Assembly: GCA_947589385.1 (NCBI GenBank) | Contig: CANPZW010000009.1 | Span: 1 to 57,453, forward strand | DNA length: 57,453 bases | Source: an uncultured Clostridia bacterium | GTDB lineage: Bacteria > Bacillota > Clostridia > Christensenellales > Borkfalkiaceae | Direction: 5' to 3' | In this document: positions 301 through 20,403 of the stretch, one piece after another | Layout: each line of letters opens with the position of its first letter | How positions within the stretch are numbered: position 1 is the first letter of the stretch | Notes under the pieces: generated by a model | What the model saw: only the letters and a program-made list of their open reading frames with translations | The model's database searches: none | What the model was told of the DNA's origin: nothing | Translations under genes and position numbers: made by a program

Positions 301-337
301 GCGACCGTCTCCGCAGGCGGTCGCTCGTTTCATTTTT
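301..337 (+). terminator. Intrinsic terminator after dinD
   Basis: GCGACCG at 301-307 pairs with CGGTCGC at 318-324, followed by a T-rich tail to 337. It lies 9 bases after the dinD stop and overlaps the end of the convergent gene that stops at 330. Confidence 0.8.
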
Positions 338-1484
338 TCGTAAACCTTTTCCCATACAGAGAATATTCGCCGTTTTCGTCCTCCACGATTTTGTAAATAA
401 ATCCGCGGGACAATTCCCAAAACAGGTCTTTGAACACGGGGTGATTGATGAGTGCGGCATAGATGCGCCAATCCGCCGCGCTGTTCTTCTCATAGTGGCG
501 CAAGACAAGAATGAGTATATTTTCGTTCGTCAGCCACTTCGACACTTCCTTGTCCCGCCGTGACTTTTCGTCTGCGATCCTGTCAAAGAGGACTTCGCGC
601 TCCTGTTCGTCTGCCGTTCTTATCGCCATATACAGACGGTTGATATTCGCTTTGCTCTCGTCGATGATTTCTACGATTTTATCCGTGTGACGGTATTCCG
701 TTGCGCTCCCTGAACCCATAGAGAAGGCGCAAGACTTGAAAAACTTGTTTCGGAGAAGCACCATGTGCCTGTCCGCATATTCTCCCGCAAACAGGCTCTC
801 GTCCAACAGGCTTTCTCCGTCCCATATATCGTTTGTGATTTGCGTTTCTTTTGTATGCGCGGCGAGCTTCCCGTCCTCGATTTCGACGGATACGACTTCT
901 TCCGTAAACGTGCTTTGATATTCCGGCACAAAGAGGATGCCGTTGAGTGGTATCTCTATCGTTCCCTTGATACTACTGAGTGATAGGGCTTTATAAGACT
1001 CCCACGACGCGAGGTCTGCTTTGGGTTTCAAGCCGCACTCGCTCCATTTTGACATGGCGCGGAAGAGCCATTCGTCTATGAAAAGACACTTGCCTTCGCG
1101 GGAACTGCCCGCGCTCCGCTTGTATCTCACATACCGAATACCGTCCACGCAGAAGCCGTTTTCATAGAAATGTTCCCGAAGTTCTTTAATTTTTACAGGT
1201 TTTCCGTCTGCGGGTTTGAATTCATAGTTGAATTTGACGTTGACGACGGCGAGGGTATAGGCGTTTTCGTACTCGTCTTGGAAAGAGAATTTCCTGCGGC
1301 AAATGCGCGTATATGCCTTTTCAAGCTCGTTGGAATCAAGGGAATCGTCCAAAAGTATCTTGAACAGCCGAAAACGCGCGTCGCCCTTTTCGGGAAGCCG
1401 ATACCCGACGACCGCGCCGTTTTCCTGTTCATTTTTATATATGTCCGCCGCCTCGACAGACAATATCCGATACCCTCTGCGCAT
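330..1484 (-). CDS. Unrecognised conserved protein, possibly an internally deleted polymerase-like protein
   Basis: This 384-residue protein has no signal peptide or membrane segment. I do not recognise it with certainty. Landmarks are a basic block RYKRSAGSSREGKCLFI (about residues 120-136), a GTIEIPLNGILF strand, then IWDGESLLDESLF and LLRNKFFKSCAF. From memory, this order resembles the N-terminal half of very long clostridial proteins with a two-barrel RNA-polymerase-like fold and a later DFDSD-type catalytic motif. Here no DxDxD motif exists, and after the FFKSC block the sequence passes straight to a charged C-terminal region, so a large central deletion is possible. I chose the start at 1484 rather than the longer frame to 1541, because a TGGTATAAT element sits directly before it, implying a leaderless mRNA; no ribosome binding site is present. 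The gene stands between dinD and the pilin operon in an accessory region. Confidence 0.55.
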   Translation of the reverse strand: MRRGYRILSVEAADIYKNEQENGAVVGYRLPEKGDARFRLFKILLDDSLDSNELEKAYTRICRRKFSFQDEYENAYTLAVVNVKFNYEFKPADGKPVKIKELREHFYENGFCVDGIRYVRYKRSAGSSREGKCLFIDEWLFRAMSKWSECGLKPKADLASWESYKALSLSSIKGTIEIPLNGILFVPEYQSTFTEEVVSVEIEDGKLAAHTKETQITNDIWDGESLLDESLFAGEYADRHMVLLRNKFFKSCAFSMGSGSATEYRHTDKIVEIIDESKANINRLYMAIRTADEQEREVLFDRIADEKSRRDKEVSKWLTNENILILVLRHYEKNSAADWRIYAALINHPVFKDLFWELSRGFIYKIVEDENGEYSLYGKRFTKK

Positions 1485-1490
1485 ACGGAT

Positions 1491-1499
1491 ATTATACCA
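1491..1499 (-). promoter_or_regulatory. Extended -10 promoter, leaderless geometry
   Basis: TGG plus TATAAT (minus strand, 1499 to 1491), no convincing -35, then 6 nt to the ATG at 1484. Transcription would start at or very near the A of the ATG. Confidence 0.6.
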
Positions 1500-1532
1500 C
1501 AAAACAGTGCAAAAAGAAAACCAAGCTATATG

Positions 1533-1560
1533 AAAAGACAACGGAAAACCGTTGTCTTTT
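1533..1560 (-). terminator. Terminator of the pilin operon
   Basis: Twelve-base arms AAAAGACAACGG (1533-1544) and CCGTTGTCTTTT (1549-1560) are perfectly complementary with a 4-nt loop. On the minus strand the stem ends in TTTT, 32 bases past the last pilin gene. Confidence 0.85.
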
Positions 1561-1591: not shown

Positions 1592-2092
1592 CTAACCCAT
1601 GCCGTTCAAGGGTTTTACGGTGACGCTACCGCTCCATAGCGTCTTGCCGCCGAAAGAAATCGACACGGAAATTTTTATGGTTTTCTTATCTTTGTCTCCC
1701 GAAAAAGACAAATCCGAAACGCGAAGATTGCCGTATGAGGCGCCCGCAAAGAGTAGTTCAGTTTCCTTTTCGCCGTCTTTTTCGTGTTCCATAACGATCT
1801 TTCCCTCATCGTTGACGGAAAACACGTAGCCCTTGTTCGCCTCGTTGATGTCGAACATGACGTGCCCCTTGCCGTCGACCGTGACGCTTTCTGCGACGCG
1901 GAGTTGTCCCTGCAAATTGTCGAGCGCCTCGCTACCGAGGATCTCGGCCTGCGCGACTTCCCGCATTGTGACGGTAGAACTGAGAATAGCCGATGTCATA
2001 ACCGTCACCATAATCGACACAAACCCGAGAAGCAATACGGAGATCAACATTTCCGTAAGCGTAAAACCTTTTTTGTTGCGTAATTTTTTCAT
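1592..2092 (-). CDS. Type IV pilin-like minor pseudopilin (PilW/GspJ-like)
   Basis: 166 residues. The N-terminus has a short basic leader ending in KKG, then FTLTE (Glu at +5 of the mature protein) and a hydrophobic helix of about 20 residues: the class III prepilin signature cut and methylated by a prepilin peptidase. The rest is beta-rich and acidic and ends in a possible pseudopilin head (SVTVKPLNGMG). It is the last gene of a four-gene minus-strand operon and overlaps the previous gene by 4 bases, so translation is probably coupled. It likely forms part of a small pilus tip or secretion pseudopilus. No PilB ATPase, PilC or PilD peptidase is in the window, so assembly must use proteins encoded elsewhere. 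Confidence 0.8.
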   Translation of the reverse strand: MKKLRNKKGFTLTEMLISVLLLGFVSIMVTVMTSAILSSTVTMREVAQAEILGSEALDNLQGQLRVAESVTVDGKGHVMFDINEANKGYVFSVNDEGKIVMEHEKDGEKETELLFAGASYGNLRVSDLSFSGDKDKKTIKISVSISFGGKTLWSGSVTVKPLNGMG

Positions 2093-2412
2093 GGCGTGTC
2101 CCCGTTGTGATAGACGGAAAGTCCGTCCTGCGTTAAATACTCCACCTCAACGTTGCTTGTTCCGTTGCTGCCCTCGTATTGCAGGTTCCCTTTCGACTTT
2201 GTCGTATTGTCCGATTCTTCCATTTTTTCAAGCGTACTTACGGCTTCGTAAAATGCTTCGTCCTGCTTTTGCGCGGAAAGATTGATATTCATCGAAGCGG
2301 TGTACATGGCGGCGAACATCCCCGCGAAGAGCGCAATGATGAGGATCGCGACAAGGATCTCGACAAGCGTTTCGCCCCGTTTTGATTTAAGTTTCCAAAA
2401 TGTATTCTTCAT
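2089..2412 (-). CDS. Type IV pilin-like minor pseudopilin (PilV/GspI-like)
   Basis: 107 residues. The leader ends in SKRG and is followed by ETLVE with Glu at +5 and a hydrophobic helix (ILVAILIIALFAGMFAA), then an amphipathic helix and a short C-terminal domain ending YHNGDTP. This is the size and pattern of GspI/PilV-type minor pseudopilins. It starts 10 bases after the PilX-like gene and overlaps the PilW-like gene by 4 bases, so all four are one transcript. Its leader, WKLKSKRGETLVE, is very like that of the large prepilin at 3046 (QKLKSKRGTTLVE), which suggests processing by the same peptidase. Confidence 0.8.
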   Translation of the reverse strand: MKNTFWKLKSKRGETLVEILVAILIIALFAGMFAAMYTASMNINLSAQKQDEAFYEAVSTLEKMEESDNTTKSKGNLQYEGSNGTSNVEVEYLTQDGLSVYHNGDTP

Positions 2413-2422
2413 ACTTTTCTCC

Positions 2423-3049
2423 TCAATAACCTGCTTCTACGACATACGTAACTTTTTTCATATCGAATTTCATTCGCTTGTAAAACAACTTCCTGTTGCT
2501 ATCCTCCACGAAGTTGCCTATGCCATCGCTGAATGTTGTGCCGACTTTCATGGTTATCTGGTAATCGCGGTTGTCGCCGTCCACCGAATAGAGTCTGAAA
2601 TCGAAGGTACCGCTGTAAACGTAAACGCTGACAGAAACCGTTCCCATGCCGGCGTCCGTCGCGGAGAGCGAAAAATCAAAATTTGCGTTCGCGCTGGTCG
2701 AATAGGCCTGCAAACATTTCGTAAAGGCCTCGTCGGCGAGAAACAGATCCCTTTGTCCGGTGGTAGTATAGGTTACGGTTACCTCATCGGGTTGGGGATA
2801 GCCTTTTTCCGCCGTGTACTCTATCTCGACATCTTCGAGTCTGTCGAGAATGATATTTGCCGCAGAAATGACTGAGAGATACGCCTGTTGGTCGTCCTTT
2901 TCGTGCGTGTATCTGCCCGCGTTGGACGCCGCCATGGTGAGCGCTACCGTCCCCGAAAGCGCGGCAAGGAAAAAGACGAGTAGCGCAATCATCAGCGCCG
3001 CGCCGCGCCTGCCTGAAATTTTTTTGCGTAAATCGCCGTATTTTTTCAC
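2423..3049 (-). CDS. Pseudopilin lacking Glu5 (PilX/GspK-like)
   Basis: 208 residues. The leader ends in SGRRG and the mature protein starts AALMI with a long hydrophobic helix (LLVFFLAALSGTVAL). Unlike its three neighbours it lacks Glu at +5, as is typical for PilX/GspK tip proteins. A coiled region with HEKDDQQAYLSV and a beta-rich domain follow. The start overlaps the stop of the large prepilin by 4 bases (ATGA type), so translation is coupled. Together the four genes supply the usual minor set (H/I/J/K-like), with the large protein in place of the ordinary GspH/major pilin. Confidence 0.75.
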   Translation of the reverse strand: MKKYGDLRKKISGRRGAALMIALLVFFLAALSGTVALTMAASNAGRYTHEKDDQQAYLSVISAANIILDRLEDVEIEYTAEKGYPQPDEVTVTYTTTGQRDLFLADEAFTKCLQAYSTSANANFDFSLSATDAGMGTVSVSVYVYSGTFDFRLYSVDGDNRDYQITMKVGTTFSDGIGNFVEDSNRKLFYKRMKFDMKKVTYVVEAGY

Positions 3050-6000
3050 GCCTCGCCTCCGTCTGCCACGCAGAAACTGCCGTCGGTGAAAGTTATTTTC
3101 GCGCCGGTTTCGGATAATGAGATCGTTATTTGCGATGTGCTAAAATAACTCGGTTTGATATAGTAGTAATTATCCCTTTCATCAATATCATTTCCATCTT
3201 CATCCTTTGCTCCGGTCTCTCGAAATTCGGCATCGCCGTACTCCACTTCATCGTCAAAACCAATATAATACGCGTGTTTGGCTTGCAGATCGCCGAAAAA
3301 AAGACCGAAATAGTCCCAGTTAAGAGATGTATCGTCTTTATTGATATAGTCCAAACTGTCGGAGAGCCCGGATTTGACCCCTTTTCGCTTCAAGGGATCG
3401 AACAAGGAAGCATCGTAGGCGAAACCCTTGAAAGTGAATCTTTTGTCGTTATATGTGACAGCCGATGTGAGACCTACGCCCGGCATCTTCGGCAGGTCCG
3501 GGTTCGGGTTCATCCACCACATGCCGTTGAGCATGGCGTTCTTCAATAAAACATTATTCTTCGCGTCAACGGTAAACTTTTCCGCGGAAATAACTCCGGT
3601 GTCGACGTTGCTTTGTCCGATACTCGACCAAATCGCGTTATAATACGCGCAGAAGAACCCGACACACTTGCTCACAAAGGTCTCGGGAACGACGGCGTCG
3701 GGGATGTCGTCGTACTCCATGATCCACGAACCGTTGAACACATTGTTCTCGCTGAGCATGGGGAAAGGGTATGTCTTTTCGGGGTTGCCGTCTCCGCTGT
3801 AAGAATCTCCGTTCTCACGCCGCCAGAAGACCGTTTCTTTTGCGCTTCCCCATCCGTTGCCGCTGTTCAGATTTTTTTTGAGATCGGTCGCGTTGGCGCA
3901 AGCGACGCCGCTACTTTCGCCGGTGAGGGAGAACACATCGCCCGTGCAATCAAAATGCGCCTCGGTGTTTGTCGTGATGGGGACCGCCAGATGCGTCTGG
4001 ACAATGTAGTAGTTCTTATTGTCTCCCTTGAAAGTGCCGTATGCGGTGGGCGGAAGAATCTGCCACTCGACGGAAGAGTAGCAATCGGTAACGTCCGGGG
4101 CGGTGCCGCCGATGTCCGCGATCAGTCCGCCGCCGACGCGCGCCTGCCGCAGTATGATGCCCGAAGCGAAACTTTTTTCGATCTTCAAACCGCCGGTGCC
4201 CGTGCCGTTTTGACCGTAATACCATCCGTTGTTATACGGTTTGCCGTAATATCCTTGGTTGTCGTACTTCCACGTTCCCGGTTTTGCGACGCCGCCGACA
4301 AGCCCGCCGGCATTGTAGCCGTTCAGTTGGCTCGCCGCGAAGCAGCCCTTAATAACGACGTTGCCCATTGTCATGCCGACAAGCCCGCCCGCGTAGAGGC
4401 AACTGCTTGTTTGATCGTACAATTCCGTGCCGACGTTGATCGAAGCGGAGCAGTCCGTGAAAGTCGTAGTTTCGTTCTCGGTAGTGTCCGAACTCCAACC
4501 GTTTATCGTTGTAATACCGGTCGAACCGATCGCTATCCCCACGAGGCCGCCCGCTATGACGCCGCTCGTACGGCGGTAACCGAGATTGTTCGCGGCATAC
4601 TTGTTGGTGTTGTCGAGGTCGCCTTCGGGAGTATTGGAATCTTCTTCTACCTTTAAATCCCTAGTCTTGTCGAGATAGACGTGTACATTTTTGAAAGTGG
4701 AATTTACGGCTATGCCGACCAAAGAGCCGGATACGGCGTGCGAATATCGTGCGTTTATCCCGCTAACGTTCCCGTCGCTATCCTCGGATAAAAAGGTAAG
4801 GTCGAAGCCATTGCGCATTACCGAGGGGCTGATTATATCGAGATCCTCGACGGTAAGGCCGTAGGCATAACCGAACAGCCCGCCCAACAGGTTCGTTCGT
4901 CCGCTGAACCCGGCGCCGACTATGGCATGACGACCGCCGTCTTTACTCTTGCCGGACAGGGTAAAGGGTTTCGTGGGGTTCAGCATATCCACATTCATCG
5001 CGTCGATATTGGCGTATCTCGTCCAATATGAGTTTACCTCGGGGTTCTTTCGAATCAAGGCATAGCGCACTTTTACAAGCTTATCGTAAGTTTGCTGCGC
5101 AGTTATATCCTGGTTGAGCTCCGCCCGATTCACGATGTTGTCTGTGTTGAAAACGTATTTGAGGTTGTTCAGATCGCGCAGGGCGGAGATGGCTATTTTG
5201 GTGTTTTCGTCGGAGATGGCGTTGAAATAGGGCGAGATCTCACCGGTCAGCGCTTCGAAAGACGCAAATTTTTCGTCCTTTTGGTAAAAACTTGCAGACG
5301 TACCCTCAGGCATTCCCACCGCGTCCCTGCAAACATCCGAGAGCACGCTCAGCCTTATTTTGAGCTGCATGGTTTCGTCGACGCCCACATATTTGGTTAC
5401 GTTCGTGTAGTCCAGACCGAAGATTTTATTGTGGAGAGCGCGGTTCTCGGTATCGTTGATTTCGCGGTGCCACACCGTCATGTAAGGATTTGTCGTCGGG
5501 TTGAACCAGTTCGCGATCGATTCGCGGGGGTATAGCGTGGGGTCGGTCACGGTTGTGTATTCGGGTTTGTTCTGGTGGCGCAAACATTGCTTTACGTAAG
5601 CGTCGCCGTAGCCCGCCCTGTCGGTGATCATGCTGTCGAGCGCAAACCTTATAACCCCGTCGTTTTGCTGTATTTTCCTCAACGTGAGGGCGTGCGGAGC
5701 GTCGCCGTCGGGCTCTATGGCGCCGGCGTACTGCGTCTCATATCTCGTGGCAAAAAATCCTTGATAATAGATGCCGATCTCGTCGGTCAGTTCGCCGTCG
5801 GCACCGGGGATCTCGGCATATATCTCCAATCCCAGACGGCTGTCCAGAAGTTCATCCGGGAGCGTTTCCCCCATTTGCATTTCGAGATAGAGTTCGTCGG
5901 AGAAAACGAATTTGCACGAAAAGTTGGGCACGCGCACCATGCGTTCCGGCGCGGGTGCACCGTAGCCGAGGTAAAGACCTATGCGCTTGCTCTTTAAAAT

Positions 6001-6498
6001 ATTTTCGTTAGCCTGAGGAAGAATATCGTCTAAATTATAATCCTTATCGCTGTAAAAAACTTCGAGAACGTCGGCGGTAGATTCCTTAAATACAACCACT
6101 ATCTTGCCCTTATCCAAAAGCTCGCTCTCCGTAATCGCGCCCGACAAAAGCTGTTCTCTGCCTTGGGAACCTTTATCGCTTAAAAAGTTGTTGACAAAAA
6201 GAAAATCTTCTTCCGTCTCGTCATCGGATAATTTAGTTTTATCGGCAGCCGTATTGCACAGCATAAAATATGCCGACTTTGCCGAAGTGCCGGCGTTTTT
6301 CATTCCGTAAAGCTTGCTTTGCACGGCTACCGCCACCGCGCGGGCGTTGTCGTTCATTTCCGCCATTTTAATCTCTTCGGATTCGGCAAGAATATTCGGC
6401 ATTGCTATTCCGAGCATAATTGCCATAAGTGCAACGACCATAAGAACTTCGACAAGCGTTGTGCCGCGTTTGCTTTTTAATTTTTGAAAGAGTTTCAT
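3046..6498 (-). CDS. Giant prepilin-like surface protein with GLUG repeats
   Basis: 1150 residues. The N-terminus is a classic prepilin leader (KLKSKRG, then TTLVE with Glu at +5, then VLMVVALMAIMLGIAM), so it should be inserted and assembled like a pilin. Ordinary pilins have 130-200 residues, so about 1000 are extra. The region around residues 540-800 holds GLUG-type repeats: GAGFSGRTNLLGGLFG, AGGLVGIAIG, AGGLVGMTMG, AGGLVGGVAK and GGGLIADIGG, each followed by a CYSS/CFAAS-like strand. GLUG repeats occur in adhesins and M26 peptidase-associated surface proteins and likely form a beta-solenoid. I infer an adhesin displayed on a short pilus. GGAGGG ends 5 bases before the ATG. It is the first gene after the candidate invertible promoter. 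Confidence 0.8.
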   Translation of the reverse strand: MKLFQKLKSKRGTTLVEVLMVVALMAIMLGIAMPNILAESEEIKMAEMNDNARAVAVAVQSKLYGMKNAGTSAKSAYFMLCNTAADKTKLSDDETEEDFLFVNNFLSDKGSQGREQLLSGAITESELLDKGKIVVVFKESTADVLEVFYSDKDYNLDDILPQANENILKSKRIGLYLGYGAPAPERMVRVPNFSCKFVFSDELYLEMQMGETLPDELLDSRLGLEIYAEIPGADGELTDEIGIYYQGFFATRYETQYAGAIEPDGDAPHALTLRKIQQNDGVIRFALDSMITDRAGYGDAYVKQCLRHQNKPEYTTVTDPTLYPRESIANWFNPTTNPYMTVWHREINDTENRALHNKIFGLDYTNVTKYVGVDETMQLKIRLSVLSDVCRDAVGMPEGTSASFYQKDEKFASFEALTGEISPYFNAISDENTKIAISALRDLNNLKYVFNTDNIVNRAELNQDITAQQTYDKLVKVRYALIRKNPEVNSYWTRYANIDAMNVDMLNPTKPFTLSGKSKDGGRHAIVGAGFSGRTNLLGGLFGYAYGLTVEDLDIISPSVMRNGFDLTFLSEDSDGNVSGINARYSHAVSGSLVGIAVNSTFKNVHVYLDKTRDLKVEEDSNTPEGDLDNTNKYAANNLGYRRTSGVIAGGLVGIAIGSTGITTINGWSSDTTENETTTFTDCSASINVGTELYDQTSSCLYAGGLVGMTMGNVVIKGCFAASQLNGYNAGGLVGGVAKPGTWKYDNQGYYGKPYNNGWYYGQNGTGTGGLKIEKSFASGIILRQARVGGGLIADIGGTAPDVTDCYSSVEWQILPPTAYGTFKGDNKNYYIVQTHLAVPITTNTEAHFDCTGDVFSLTGESSGVACANATDLKKNLNSGNGWGSAKETVFWRRENGDSYSGDGNPEKTYPFPMLSENNVFNGSWIMEYDDIPDAVVPETFVSKCVGFFCAYYNAIWSSIGQSNVDTGVISAEKFTVDAKNNVLLKNAMLNGMWWMNPNPDLPKMPGVGLTSAVTYNDKRFTFKGFAYDASLFDPLKRKGVKSGLSDSLDYINKDDTSLNWDYFGLFFGDLQAKHAYYIGFDDEVEYGDAEFRETGAKDEDGNDIDERDNYYYIKPSYFSTSQITISLSETGAKITFTDGSFCVADGGEA

Positions 6499-6560
6499 AT
6501 AACCCTCCGCCGTTTTGTGAAAAAATATTTCAATCTATTTACGGCTTAAAATTTAAAACC

Positions 6561-6580
6561 GTAGAATAAGCTATTCTATG
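6561..6580 (+). repeat. Inverted repeat, pilin-proximal copy
   Basis: GTAGAATAAGCTATTCTATG. It is itself nearly palindromic (TAGAATA-AGC-TATTCTA), with an asymmetric AGC centre that gives it a direction. Its reverse complement matches the copy at 6718-6737 at 19 of 20 bases. Confidence 0.9.
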
Positions 6581-6595
6581 CACCTTATTATATAT

Positions 6596-6624
6596 AGTTT
6601 ATTTCATTTTATGCAAAAAGTCAA
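6596..6624 (-). promoter_or_regulatory. Promoter of the pilin operon
   Basis: TTGACT (6624-6619), 17 bp, TAAACT (6601-6596) on the minus strand. The expected start is near 6589, so the leader is about 90 nt and contains the proximal inverted repeat. Confidence 0.75.
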
Positions 6625-6717
6625 GAATAAGAGATATTTATTTACAATATTTTCGGTAATATCGTCAAAAGCCTACATGGATTTCAATTTTAGTGTACCG
6701 AAAGACCGTTTTAAGTC

Positions 6718-6738
6718 CATAGAATAGCTTATTCTATG
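6718..6738 (-). repeat. Inverted repeat, recombinase-proximal copy
   Basis: CATAGAATAGC followed by TTATTCTATG: a palindrome with 9-base arms around GCT. It is the inverted partner of 6561-6580. Confidence 0.9.
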
Positions 6739-6790
6739 ACTCAAAGCGGCGATAAAAACTGCCGCATTTTCATTTTAAGTACCTTGATTA

Positions 6791-7560
6791 TCAGCCGTAA
6801 AGCCGACCGACTTTGTTCATCATTTCATTCTTGTGTTCGAGGAGCGAATGGGCGTATCGGTTCATGTTGTTCGTAGGATTTCGGTGTCCCAAGATTTCCG
6901 AGAGCGTCTTTATGTCCATCCCAACTTCAAGAGCGCACGTTTCAAAAGTATGCCGCAGAGCGTGAAAGCCTTTGCGCTCAATGTTCAGCTTTTCGAGAAC
7001 ATGCTCGAAAGAGCGTTGATAGGCGCGAATTTGCACCCCATATTCACTTTTTGCCGCTACAACAAACCGACCGCCCGTCTGCTTTTTAAGCTGTTTCAAC
7101 TCTCCGATAAGTTGCTTTGGCAGAGGAATTATCCGTTCCGAAGCCCCGTATAGAGGGACAGCGCGATTCCGAAGAAATAAGGCATGTTATGCTCCAAGAC
7201 GTACCGCTCGATTTTCTTCTGCTCGTCCTTGTTGAAGCAAACAACCTTTTTCTCCCGCGCTTTCGGGCTGACGATGGCGTCCGTAAATTGCCGATGCGCT
7301 ATCCCGAGCGCGACTGCCTTTTTAAGAGATGATTTCAAGACGAACAGCACGCCGTTCACGGTACTTGCCGCCATGCCCCGTTCGGTGACGTCGCGGAGAA
7401 TTTTTGCAATTCGACCGCGGACAGCTCGTCCGCCTCGTAGTCCCCGAGCGCGGGGAGAGTATTTCTCCACTTGCCGACGGTATTTCATATATGTCCTTTC
7501 TTTGGTCGAGGGCTTAACGTAAAGCTCCAACCATTCCTTTAACCACTCTTTGTAAACCAT
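6791..7560 (-). pseudogene. Tyrosine recombinase, decayed (frameshifts and internal deletion)
   Basis: The gene starts at 7560 with AAAGGAG upstream (MVYKEWLKEWLELYV). The N-terminal core-binding domain begins in frame, but between about 7465 and 7410 the normal sequence (LPALGDYEADELSAVELQK) is in another frame, while the intact-looking frame reads a basic nonsense stretch there; two compensating shifts restore the frame before RDVTERGMAASTVNG. It then reaches LYTGLRNG and stops at 7129-7131. The C-terminal part, read from IIPLPKQL in another frame, has HALRHTF, EILGH and the candidate nucleophile Tyr in NRYAHS. The roughly 30-40 residues normally between GLR.GE and IPLP, including the catalytic beta-hairpin Lys, are missing. 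It is almost certainly inactive. Its 3' end is 53 bp from the inverted repeat upstream of the pilin operon, which suggests it once served that switch. Confidence 0.85.
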
Positions 7561-7631
7561 TTTTTCTCCTTTTGTGTTGATTTTTGCACCAAAGCGCATT
7601 GAATATAATACTCCATTGTTTCTTGCATGAA

Positions 7632-7664
7632 AATAGCCGCCCGACTTGGTGTCGGACGGCTATT
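7632..7664 (-). terminator. Terminator-like hairpin upstream of the recombinase remnant
   Basis: AATAGCCG (7632-7639) pairs with CGGCTATT (7657-7664), and CCGAC with GTCGG inside, with one mismatch. On the minus strand TTTTC follows. The stretch 7565-7823 holds no gene; 7700-7712 contains the small AT palindrome CTATATATAG. Confidence 0.6.
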
Positions 7665-7823
7665 AGCGGAACACAAATTAAGTTTTCTGGCGATTTCTAT
7701 ATATAGAAAAACAGCGGGGATATGATTCCTCGCAGTTTCCTTGACTCGCCCAAAGGTGTATTACGATAAAATTTTTTTGTGATTTCCTACGGGACACACC
7801 CATGTGCTTTATCTTATTGTTAC

Positions 7824-17961: not shown

Positions 17962-19059
17962 TCAGAATTTTGCGGCAAAACCTTTACCCAAAATTTCGTT
18001 GGCGTCCGTTATAATGACGAACGAAGCCGGGTCTAAAAGATAAAGCTTTTCCTTTAAACGTATAGCCTGCGCCCTTTTGCAAACGGTGATTATTATAGTG
18101 CGGGGGTCGCCCGTGTATCCGCCTTGCGCGTCGTATTTTGTAAAGCCGCGGTTCAAATCCTGCAAAATGACCTTGGAAACGACTTCGGGGTGCATCGTTA
18201 TTATTGTAACGTATTTGGTCTTTGCGATATTTTCTATAATTCCGTCAATGGCGAACGAACGTAGCGCCACGCCGAGAATTGAAAGCATCGCTATTCCCTT
18301 GCTGCTGCCGGGGACGAAAAACGCCAGAAAGGCTATCACGAAGTCGCTTGCGATTACCGCAGGTCCTATGTTGACTTTGGCGTACTTTTTGACTATCAAA
18401 GCAATAATGTCCGTGCCGCCCGACGACGCGCCGCAATAGAATATGATGGCTTGCGCCACTCCCACCGTGACGACGGCATAAATGGCTTCCATAAGCGTAG
18501 CCACTTCGCCCGAAAGCGTGGTTTCCATGGGTATAATAAGCTCGAAAAGCCACAGCTCGGCGTTGTACATAACTGTGCAGAAAACAGTTTTCAAACCCAC
18601 GCCCTTGCCGAGGAAAATAAAACCTATAATAAGCAGAATTACGTTGATTATCGTTATAAGAATATTTTCGTTAAAGTTCGGGATTATGTTCTGAAATAAG
18701 GGCGTCAGCAAAATAGAAAGACCGCTTACGCCGCCCATAACAAAATGGTTGGGGATTTCGAACATATGGACGCCGAGCGAAAGAATCAGCACGCCTATGT
18801 TCAGCATCGTCCAATATTTTACGTTTTTTATAATATTCTTTTTGCGCTCCTCACGTGAAAGCGGAACTTTTTCCTTCTTTTCCTTCTTGCTCTTCTTGCC
18901 TTTCGGCGCAACTTCGGGTTCTACTTCCGCTGCAACTTCTTCCGCCGCGCCTACGGGCAATGCGGCTTCATTTTGCAGGCTGTCGGACAATACGGTTTCG
19001 CTCTCCGCCGCGTTTTCTGTTGTACGTTCGCCTTTTTCGGGGTTTTCCAAATCTGTCAT
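17962..19059 (-). CDS. YitT family membrane protein (DUF161 plus DUF2179), copy 1
   Basis: 365 residues. After an acidic, low-complexity N-terminal tail (residues 1-70, Glu/Lys-rich) come five to six membrane segments with the YitT signatures PNHFVMGGVSGLSILL, FLGKGVGLKTVF, CGASSGGTDIIAL and KYVTIITMHPE. The C-terminal DUF2179 cytoplasmic domain holds GGYTGDPRTIIITVCKRAQ and FVIITDANEILGKGF. The family is common in Bacillota, usually in several copies; function is not established. AAGAGG precedes the ATG. It is about half identical by eye to the next gene, with its own promoter, so the two are a diverged tandem duplication rather than an operon. Confidence 0.85.
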   Translation of the reverse strand: MTDLENPEKGERTTENAAESETVLSDSLQNEAALPVGAAEEVAAEVEPEVAPKGKKSKKEKKEKVPLSREERKKNIIKNVKYWTMLNIGVLILSLGVHMFEIPNHFVMGGVSGLSILLTPLFQNIIPNFNENILITIINVILLIIGFIFLGKGVGLKTVFCTVMYNAELWLFELIIPMETTLSGEVATLMEAIYAVVTVGVAQAIIFYCGASSGGTDIIALIVKKYAKVNIGPAVIASDFVIAFLAFFVPGSSKGIAMLSILGVALRSFAIDGIIENIAKTKYVTIITMHPEVVSKVILQDLNRGFTKYDAQGGYTGDPRTIIITVCKRAQAIRLKEKLYLLDPASFVIITDANEILGKGFAAKF

Positions 19060-19080
19060 AACGACCTCTTAAACAAATCT

Positions 19081-19109
19081 ATCTTATCACAAATTTTGCG
19101 CCCTGTCAA
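19081..19109 (-). promoter_or_regulatory. Promoter of YitT copy 1
   Basis: TTGACA (19109-19104), 17 bp, TAAGAT (19086-19081), with a TGA extension. Confidence 0.85.
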
Positions 19110-19166
19110 TGTTTAAAGAGGTTTAACGCGCAGGCAAAAGACAAGCGGCGCATTTTTTAAGCGAAG

Positions 19167-19194
19167 AAGCCGCGCGTCGTACGACGCGCGGCTT
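19167..19194 (-). terminator. Terminator between the two YitT genes
   Basis: A 28-base perfect palindrome with arms AAGCCGCGCGTCGT, 19 bases after the end of YitT copy 2. Confidence 0.75.
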
Positions 19195-19212
19195 TAAAAT
19201 TCTTTTGAAAAT

Positions 19213-20232
19213 TTACATTCTTTCGGCAAAGCCCTTGCCCAAAATTTCGTTAGCGTCGGTTATGATGACGAACGAGGTAGGGTCTTCGTCATGCAATTTC
19301 GCTTTAAGGTGTGCGGCTTGCGCGCGGCGGCATACGGTAATTATAACCGTGCGGGGGTCGCCCGTGTAACCGCCGATAGCCTCCATTTTTGTAAAGCCGC
19401 GGTGTATGTAATCCACTATTATCTCCGAAACCATATCGGGGTGCTCGGTAATAATGGTGACGTACTTCGTCTTTGTTATATTTTCTATTACGCCGTCTAT
19501 TACGAACGACTTCGCAAATACGCCTATAATCGACAGAAGCCCTATTTCCGTGGTGAACTGCCAGAATGCAAGGCAGGCAACCAAAATATCGGCTACAAAG
19601 AGCGCAAAGCCTATGTTGGATTTGGAGTATTTTTTAATTATTAGCGCTATTATATCCGTTCCGCCCGACGACGCGCGGCAGTTGAAAACAATCGCCTGTC
19701 CCGCGCCCGTAATAAGCACTGCGAATACGAGTTCGAGAAAGAGTTGGTTGCCGCCCGTAAGGGGGAATATATTTTCAGTTGGTATAAGATTGAGAAGAAT
19801 GTTCTCCAAAGAAAGCACTACCGTGCAGTAAATGGTTTTTAGGGTAAGCGCCTTTCCCAGAAAAATCAAGCCGAAAATAAGCAATATGGCGTTCAGTAAG
19901 CCGTAAATAACGGAATAACTTAAAATACCGTGGGTAGGACCTTCAAGAACTTTTGCAAGAACGACGGAAATACCGCCTACGCCGCCCAGCGCGAAATTGT
20001 TGGGAGCTTGGAATATCCAAAGGCTGAACGCGATAAGAAATACGCCGAGGTTCAAAACCAAAAAATACAATACGGTGTTCTTTGTTATACGAAATTTGGG
20101 CTTTCCGCCTTTTACGGCTTCCGTATTTTCCGCGTTAGCCCCGTCCTTTGCGGTTTCCTCCGCAGTCAAAGCGGTTTGCGCATTTTCCTGCGTTTCCGCA
20201 GCTTGTTCATTAACGGAATTTTTATCTGACAT
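19213..20232 (-). CDS. YitT family membrane protein (DUF161 plus DUF2179), copy 2
   Basis: 339 residues. Same plan as its neighbour: an Ala/Glu-rich N-terminal tail, five to six membrane segments (PNNFALGGVGGISVVL, FLGKALTLKTIYC, CRASSGGTDIIALI, KYVTIITEHPD) and a C-terminal DUF2179 domain (GGYTGDPRTVIITVCRRAQ, FVIITDANEILGKGF). I chose the start at 20232, preceded by AGGAG; the longer frame to 20301 crosses the promoter. Different N-terminal tails and loop charges suggest different partners. Function unknown; family members have been guessed to transport small molecules. Confidence 0.85.
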   Translation of the reverse strand: MSDKNSVNEQAAETQENAQTALTAEETAKDGANAENTEAVKGGKPKFRITKNTVLYFLVLNLGVFLIAFSLWIFQAPNNFALGGVGGISVVLAKVLEGPTHGILSYSVIYGLLNAILLIFGLIFLGKALTLKTIYCTVVLSLENILLNLIPTENIFPLTGGNQLFLELVFAVLITGAGQAIVFNCRASSGGTDIIALIIKKYSKSNIGFALFVADILVACLAFWQFTTEIGLLSIIGVFAKSFVIDGVIENITKTKYVTIITEHPDMVSEIIVDYIHRGFTKMEAIGGYTGDPRTVIITVCRRAQAAHLKAKLHDEDPTSFVIITDANEILGKGFAERM

Positions 20233-20260
20233 AGTTTTCTCCTGAAATCGAGCGTTAAAT

Positions 20261-20289
20261 ATCATAACATTACGTTTTTTAAAAGTCAA
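20261..20289 (-). promoter_or_regulatory. Promoter of YitT copy 2
   Basis: TTGACT (20289-20284), 17 bp, TATGAT (20266-20261), TGT extension. Confidence 0.85.
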
Positions 20290-20403
20290 CAAATTACACA
20301 ATAAATTTTCGGCTTTTTGATTTGAAAAAAATTAACTATTTAACGAGACGCATGACGAGGAAGAAAAGGGCTAATGTGAAAAAAACACCGTAAAAAGACA
20401 GGC

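Follow-up and report, generated by a model that had tools for sequence, protein, structure and literature searches.

A candidate invertible promoter between palindromic sites with matched centres, ahead of a pilin-like operon in an uncultured Clostridia bacterium

Known promoter switches and the anatomy of the locus

Promoter inversion by tyrosine recombinases has long been known. In the fim system of E. coli, inverted repeats surround the promoter of the pilus operon and tyrosine recombinases adjoin them. The locus described here, in a stretch of 57,453 nucleotides from an uncultured Clostridia bacterium (the whole stretch is called the window), resembles that arrangement, the type of pilus being different. 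The fim-like plan of the original prediction stood as regards the inverted repeats, the promoter and the recombinase, but it did not extend to the enzyme model: the intact recombinase of genome G014 scored 28.3 bits, against a cut-off of 222, with the tyrosine-type DNA invertase model NF007371, which we take to stand for the Fim type (FimB/FimE). The nearest published match found, likened by description, pairs inverton group 139 with its invertase group 35; according to the passages on it, it holds 33 invertons, 32 of them from Clostridia, a tyrosine-type recombinase gene lies near nearly all, and inversion was measured from reads (PMC11892184).

The features of the locus are collected in Table 1. 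As had been predicted, two near-identical repeats lie in inverse orientation: the repeat search gave a pair (6562-6583 and 6715-6736) with arms of 22 nt, 95% complementary and 131 nt apart, and each repeat is palindromic with an asymmetric 3-base centre. The centre of site B is the reverse complement of the centre of site A, and the cores are otherwise identical. Since the arms are palindromic, it is the centre that sets the direction of each core, and the two sites thus point oppositely. Allowing up to 2 mismatches, TAGAATA-N3-TATTCTA was matched 3 times in the window against 0.16 expected, and none of 100 shuffles reached 3. The exact pattern occurs in the own genome (1.53 Mb, 30 contigs) only at sites A and B, and in 3 of the 93 genomes of the genus; a single core match was seen in G004.

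Table 1. Features of the locus in the window
Feature	Position	Strand	Description
Possible operon gene 5	330..1541	-	403 aa; no family in Pfam or NCBIfam
Operon gene 4	1592..2092	-	166 aa; N_methyl prepilin motif above cut-off
Operon gene 3	2089..2412	-	107 aa; N_methyl prepilin motif above cut-off
Operon gene 2	2423..3049	-	208 aa; weak resemblance to GspK-like pseudopilins, 20.4 bits vs cut-off 130
First target gene, prepilin-like protein	3046..6498	-	1150 aa; ATG 58 nt from outer edge of site A
Site A, pilin side	6557..6583		27 nt; core TAGAATA-AGC-TATTCTA at 6562-6578
Invertible segment (predicted)	6584..6714		131 nt; ON orientation as assembled
Promoter-like site	6596..6624	-	TTGACT (6624-6619), 17 nt, TAAACT (6601-6596); reads toward pilin operon
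Site B, recombinase side	6715..6741		27 nt; core TAGAATA-GCT-TATTCTA at 6720-6736
G+C hairpin separating site B from the remnant	6746..6765		terminator-like on + strand in scan
Broken tyrosine recombinase gene	6791..7599	-	two ORFs, 156 + 102 aa; central stretch missing, frame interrupted

The outward promoter said to be enclosed by the repeats was recovered as a consensus match, TTGACT-17-TAAACT, leading into the 1150-aa prepilin-like gene, and its -10 ends 24 nt from the centre of site A. Considering that 5 promoter-like matches were counted on both strands of 6480-7000 against 1.4 expected, this match is by itself modest. In 41 segments the best promoter was picked by a scoring that favoured TTGAC and a spacer of 17 nt, and in 37 of them its -10 ended at a distance of 22-26 nt from the centre of a site; L139, L142, and L143 (14 nt) and L059 (66 nt) were exceptions. 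A TTGAC -35 was present in 39 of the 41, a count which the scoring favoured.

The N-terminal methylation motif of the 1150-aa protein scored 17 bits against a cut-off of 21.2, and that of its G118 orthologue 25.9 bits, above the cut-off. The identification of the target as a GLUG-repeat adhesin was not confirmed: a search of the window protein that admitted E values as high as 10 listed no Pfam Glug match, the HMMER filters removing the majority of matches with E beyond roughly 0.1. In the G118 orthologue Glug stayed below the cut-off (13.9 versus 20.5 bits), and in another G118 target, the paralogue at L146, it reached 36.9 bits and passed it. The own genome holds two pilus-type ATPase matches above cut-off on contig C17 and a prepilin peptidase homologue on C28. 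By eye, the ORF list also shows a pair of neighbouring membrane-protein ORFs, paralogous to each other, at 17962-20301 of the window (minus strand).

The recombinase remnant that had been placed 53 bp from the repeats is indeed there, with its stop 53 nt from position 6738. Of its two pieces, the one of 102 aa is recognised by Pfam Phage_integrase (E 5.9e-12), and the one of 156 aa, which matched no Pfam family, aligns to the recombinase of a relative. The N-terminal part and residues 187-301 lie in different frames, what should join them is absent, and the frame is also lost over some of the N-terminal half; an assembly error may be the source of the broken reading frame. Hairpins like the one beside site B were seen by eye to trail the recombinase gene in several relatives.

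Five open relatives of the enzyme are encoded in the own genome, with identities to the G014 protein of 73% (C6), 61% and 51% (both C8), 47% (C30), and 44% (C5). Downstream of the C5 recombinase lies a separate inverted pair, TTTCAAAGTAAACCCTATACTTTGAA; this second cassette (L158, the same place as L018, recombinase match 3178-4080) differs from the window switch in its pair, and a promoter was noticed by eye between its arms. The sites of the C6 recombinase are not visible because the contig stops 127 nt past the match, and that contig end (L159, positions 1-127; L019) lies near a perfect 32-nt palindrome beyond the open recombinase gene. With its cis recombinase broken, the window switch would be either driven in trans by a paralogue or frozen ON.

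Matched centres and recombinase cassettes

An exact scan for CATAGAATA-N3-TATTCTATG over species genomes gave 50 stretches, which with the window make 51 loci; 42 of the 50 came from uncultured Clostridia bacterium MAGs whose isolate names begin with Lapin, a name that suggests the rabbit gut. Taking as partner a second core with at most 2 mismatches in 12 at a distance of 90-620 nt, a partner site was found at 39 loci and none at 12. The centres were reverse-complementary in 37 of the 39 pairs, same-direction in none and neither in 2, where chance would give 1 in 64; the 39 pairs are not all independent, many of them belonging to G117. The matched pairs comprise 14 different centres. Of 940 random positions tried, 184 also had a core-like partner (up to 2 mismatches); the presence of a partner therefore says little by itself, and what carries weight is the match of the centres. 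Centres that vary between loci yet match within a pair are the pattern that a recombinase needing homology between its crossover sites would leave.

The two pairs with non-matching centres were those of L070, whose recombinase is damaged too, and L057, in Peptostreptococcus, whose partner 469 nt away is probably due to chance. Among the partnerless loci, four are cut by a contig end (L027, L035, L051, and L058), and L040, on contig C48 of G014, has a site without partner beside an intact recombinase. The partnerless matches in Bacillus (L032, L046), Catenovulum (L039), and Campylobacter (L068), in MAG RUI414 (L028), and in two Lapin MAGs (L038, L054) were set aside as chance.

Several loci deserve separate mention. 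In a Thomasclavelia MAG, a different lineage, a matched ACA/TGT pair of the same core lies 170 nt apart (L049, about 810-1010); no recombinase match was found on that stretch, and by eye the pair precedes a GH25 lysozyme-like ORF. Three very similar small-pilin switches of G119 (L148, L149, and L150) have GGT/ACC centres and are all OFF as assembled. At L033 a third, degenerate site stands beyond the pair (about 870-896), ahead of the pilin gene, and half sites resembling it were seen past the pairs of L064 and L070. The G119 orthologue of the window switch (L154, contig C21) combines a truncated recombinase, unmatched TGC/GAC centres, and a promoter in the ON orientation, and it is possibly a natural locked switch.

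The intact G014 recombinase (303 aa taken) matches Pfam Phage_integrase (PF00589) and Phage_int_SAM_3 (PF14659). Its nearest solved relatives are the Int protein of 6en0, 6emy, and 6emz, which we take to be Tn1549 Int, and the integrase 3nkh, with E values of 3e-14 to 9e-14. Homologues at E <= 1e-60 were present in 64 of the 297 genomes of the order. Of 89 homologue loci taken, 72 were kept, those that matched over nearly the full length and were flanked by 400 nt to either side. Downstream of the recombinase, 41 of the 72 carry an inverted pair scoring at least 17 of 20, its arms 90-260 nt apart; upstream 1 does, and first-order resampling of the downstream sequence gave 1 of 72; no downstream pair above the threshold was found in the remaining 31. 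For the 28 pairs of 18/20 or better, the first arm starts a median of 42.5 nt past the match (range 9-233). The arm sequences vary between recombinases, for example TGTACATCTAATA... and GTTCATCAATTA....

A promoter score of at least 9 of 12 was reached in 42 of 43 order-wide segments and in 7 of 43 after single-base shuffling, and the promoter of these 43 cassettes pointed away from the recombinase in 13 and toward it in 29, with 1 tie. These order-wide sets were used without de-duplication, L185 and L197 being identical cassettes. Outside the order, no repeat pair (17 of 20) was found downstream of the 18 homologues with at least 238 nt there; the set comprised 19 homologues at E <= 1e-50, the one with only 102 nt downstream being left out. 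Cassettes of the order precede DNA methyltransferases (L204 and L206 by Pfam, L187 and L217 by PADLOC), and other targets are a TIR-domain protein, an AraC-type regulator, and an ABC ATPase. Recombinase and inverted pair were seen together ahead of methyltransferases, the TIR-domain protein, and the AraC-type regulator at L217, L224, L204, L187, L206, L233, and L221.

Segment orientation between loci and the repertoire of G117

A relative carrying the segment reversed was found at the orthologous locus of G118 (L147), where the flanks are constant and the segment lies on the opposite strand. By blastn, 7123-7801, 6714-7142, and 6287-6577 of the window align to the minus strand of this locus with 75-88% identity, but 6562-6624, a stretch of 63 nt with 76% identity (E 2e-6), aligns to the plus strand; the palindromic site itself accounts for 17 nt of it. 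Global alignment of the segments gave z 7.0 flipped and 0.8 in the same orientation. The window and G119 (L154) share the same orientation (z 6.9 versus -0.6 flipped), and G118 against G119, with 164/200 identical positions in the target flank, again fitted flipped (z 7.0 versus -1.1). The original prediction was to fail if no related genome showed the reverse orientation; G118 shows it, and the phase-switch reading is supported. For the window strain, whose neighbouring recombinase is broken, current switching is a possibility.

Paralogous loci of G117 showed the same. L138 compared with L135 (flank 185/200) gave z 14.6 flipped and 1.5 in the same orientation, and compared with L144 (flank 197/200) z 15.1 and 0.8. 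Of the 13 pairs selected for this test, which were picked after scoring 351 pairs (best 60 of 351), 7 fitted better flipped and 6 in the same orientation. Seven chosen order-wide pairs were also compared, and three were flipped, two in the same orientation, and two undecided or weak. The flipped ones were the methyltransferase switches L217/L224 (z 13.6 versus 1.6; flank 176/200), L238/L236 (z 18.7; flank 170/196), and L238/L237 (z 12.5; flanks weakly alike); L236/L237 and L185/L197 shared one orientation, L206/L207 was undecided, and L234/L238 was weak (flipped z 3.1). All these z-scores set chosen pairs against single-base shuffles, and the promoter itself adds to the signal. L217 and L224 were seen to stand before the same methyltransferase-like gene. 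Some contigs end at or near sites (C1, C69, C15, and C39 of G117; C6 of the own genome, G000), breaks that mixed orientation and repeated paralogous segments would explain equally, so no weight is given to them here.

The richest repertoire was that of G117, a genome of 1.6 Mb with 35 sites at up to 3 mismatches of 22 and 0 for the reversed control. They form 15 full pairs and 5 singles (L122-L128, L131, and L133-L144), and the single on C86 has a more degenerate partner. This makes 16 complete switches, of which 4 are ON as assembled (L124, L127, L133, and L138) and 12 OFF, the target side being taken as that of the closest large ORF or of a paralogue of it. Nine precede ORFs with a prepilin motif, of which seven have 793-1363 aa, the stretch ending inside some of them, and two are small (L128, L131); six precede a lipoprotein-like family beginning MKKIFLP, according to a motif reading, and one a zinc-ribbon/C25-peptidase-like protein. 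The giant pilin paralogues have a near-identical N-terminus and leader, the lipoprotein paralogues likewise, and each has its own segment. L132, on C71 of G117, is outside the count of 16: it has a differing arm sequence (GTACATCTAATA...) and its own recombinase and lies before a lipoprotein-like gene.

Alternative readings and comparison with described systems

Taken from sequence, the segment in the window is very probably a promoter-inversion switch worked by a tyrosine recombinase. Behind this reading stand the anatomy of the locus, the flipped orthologue in G118, centres that vary between loci and yet match, and an order-wide linkage to recombinase genes; the homologues of prepilin peptidase and pilus-type ATPase in the own genome speak for it as well. 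The acting enzyme would be a member of the neighbouring gene's family, recombining the two inverted sites; the 3-base centres would need to match for strand exchange at the putative crossover, and the 131-nt segment would be flipped. In the assembled ON state the promoter would read across site A into the pilin-like operon, and in the OFF state it would read toward the recombinase gene. Inversion would presumably be reversible within one population; the support comes from comparisons between assembled genomes and between paralogous loci. The broken cis recombinase, the lack of any further exact core in the own genome and its rarity in the genus (3 of 93 genomes) count against this reading, as do the 2 of 39 pairs with unmatched centres, the partnerless site on C48 of G014, and the 31 of 72 order-wide cases with no downstream pair.

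In the window strain, flipping would need a trans-acting paralogue; otherwise the switch would be frozen ON. That the latter has happened, so that a formerly inverting switch lost its recombinase and the operon now stands under a fixed promoter, is close to an even call, leaning slightly against; this alternative is nested in promoter inversion, and the two likelihoods need not add up to one. It agrees with the cis recombinase lacking its central stretch and its frame, and with the orthologous locus of G119, which is also ON, with unmatched TGC/GAC centres and a truncated recombinase without the stretch that should hold His/Arg/Tyr, presumably the catalytic residues. However, the window centres still match exactly (AGC/GCT), the own genome has its five open recombinases of the family, one of them 73% identical to the G014 enzyme, and degenerate outer arms occur also beside an intact recombinase, as at L147. 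Operators of a dimeric regulator, acting without recombination, would likewise be nearly palindromic, as each site is, but they predict neither locus-specific centres that are reverse-complementary within the pair (37/39), nor segments flipped between related loci, nor linkage to a recombinase gene; we consider this reading highly improbable and rejected it on these three grounds. The 22-nt inverted ends and the adjoining integrase-like gene would also suit a small mobile element with terminal inverted repeats, or the leftover attachment site of an integrated one. Against this, G118 keeps flanks and segment in place with only the orientation of the segment changed, a scan of viral contigs for the 18-base site pattern found 0 matches, and the segments hold a promoter facing one site; such an origin is very unlikely and was also rejected.

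Promoter inversion being retained as the preferred explanation, a wider proposal may be made with more reserve. It is possible, and we put it tentatively, that a combinatorial display across the whole genome is run by a single recombinase family, in which at least 16 promoters of a 1.6-Mb genome, each inverting separately, would select from giant pilins and lipoproteins that can replace one another, the variable centre would act as a pairing code letting a site recombine only with a partner of like code, and the same kind of cassette would stand before methyltransferases and other genes across the order. Most G117 switches share the AGT/ACT centre, so such a code cannot separate those. The material would amount to a sequence-defined phase-switch family, with predicted recombinase, site, and targets, in a Clostridia order sampled here mostly as MAGs. 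If the switches flip, the display of pilins and lipoproteins becomes a combinatorial trait, and the variable centre would offer a natural test of partner choice in tyrosine recombinases.

What appears to be new, as a variant of a known principle, is the palindromic site family with matched variable centres, the order-wide recombinase cassette, and the multi-locus surface arsenal; a literature search of main texts found no description of the site family. The passages on inverton group 139 describe no pilin targets or matched 3-base centres (PMC11892184). The same source, in the part on inverton numbers, puts the median for Firmicutes_A at 3 invertons per genome (PMC11892184); beside this figure, which is read-based and not strictly comparable, stand the 16 complete switches that a single site family has in G117. 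In C. difficile, as described in the passages on its switches, the tyrosine recombinase RecV flips short segments at several loci, as proposed here, and at Cdi7 a recombinase adjoins, also as here; the same repeats serve Cdi2 and Cdi5 alone there, those of the remaining loci being unrelated, whereas here the palindromic family is common to many loci (PMC5903667). The likeness to Mpi of Bacteroides fragilis, as that source outlines it, lies in one master recombinase serving at least 13 invertible regions for surface structures; Mpi is of the serine type, whereas the enzyme here is of the tyrosine family and its targets are pilin-like and lipoprotein-like (PMC5903667).
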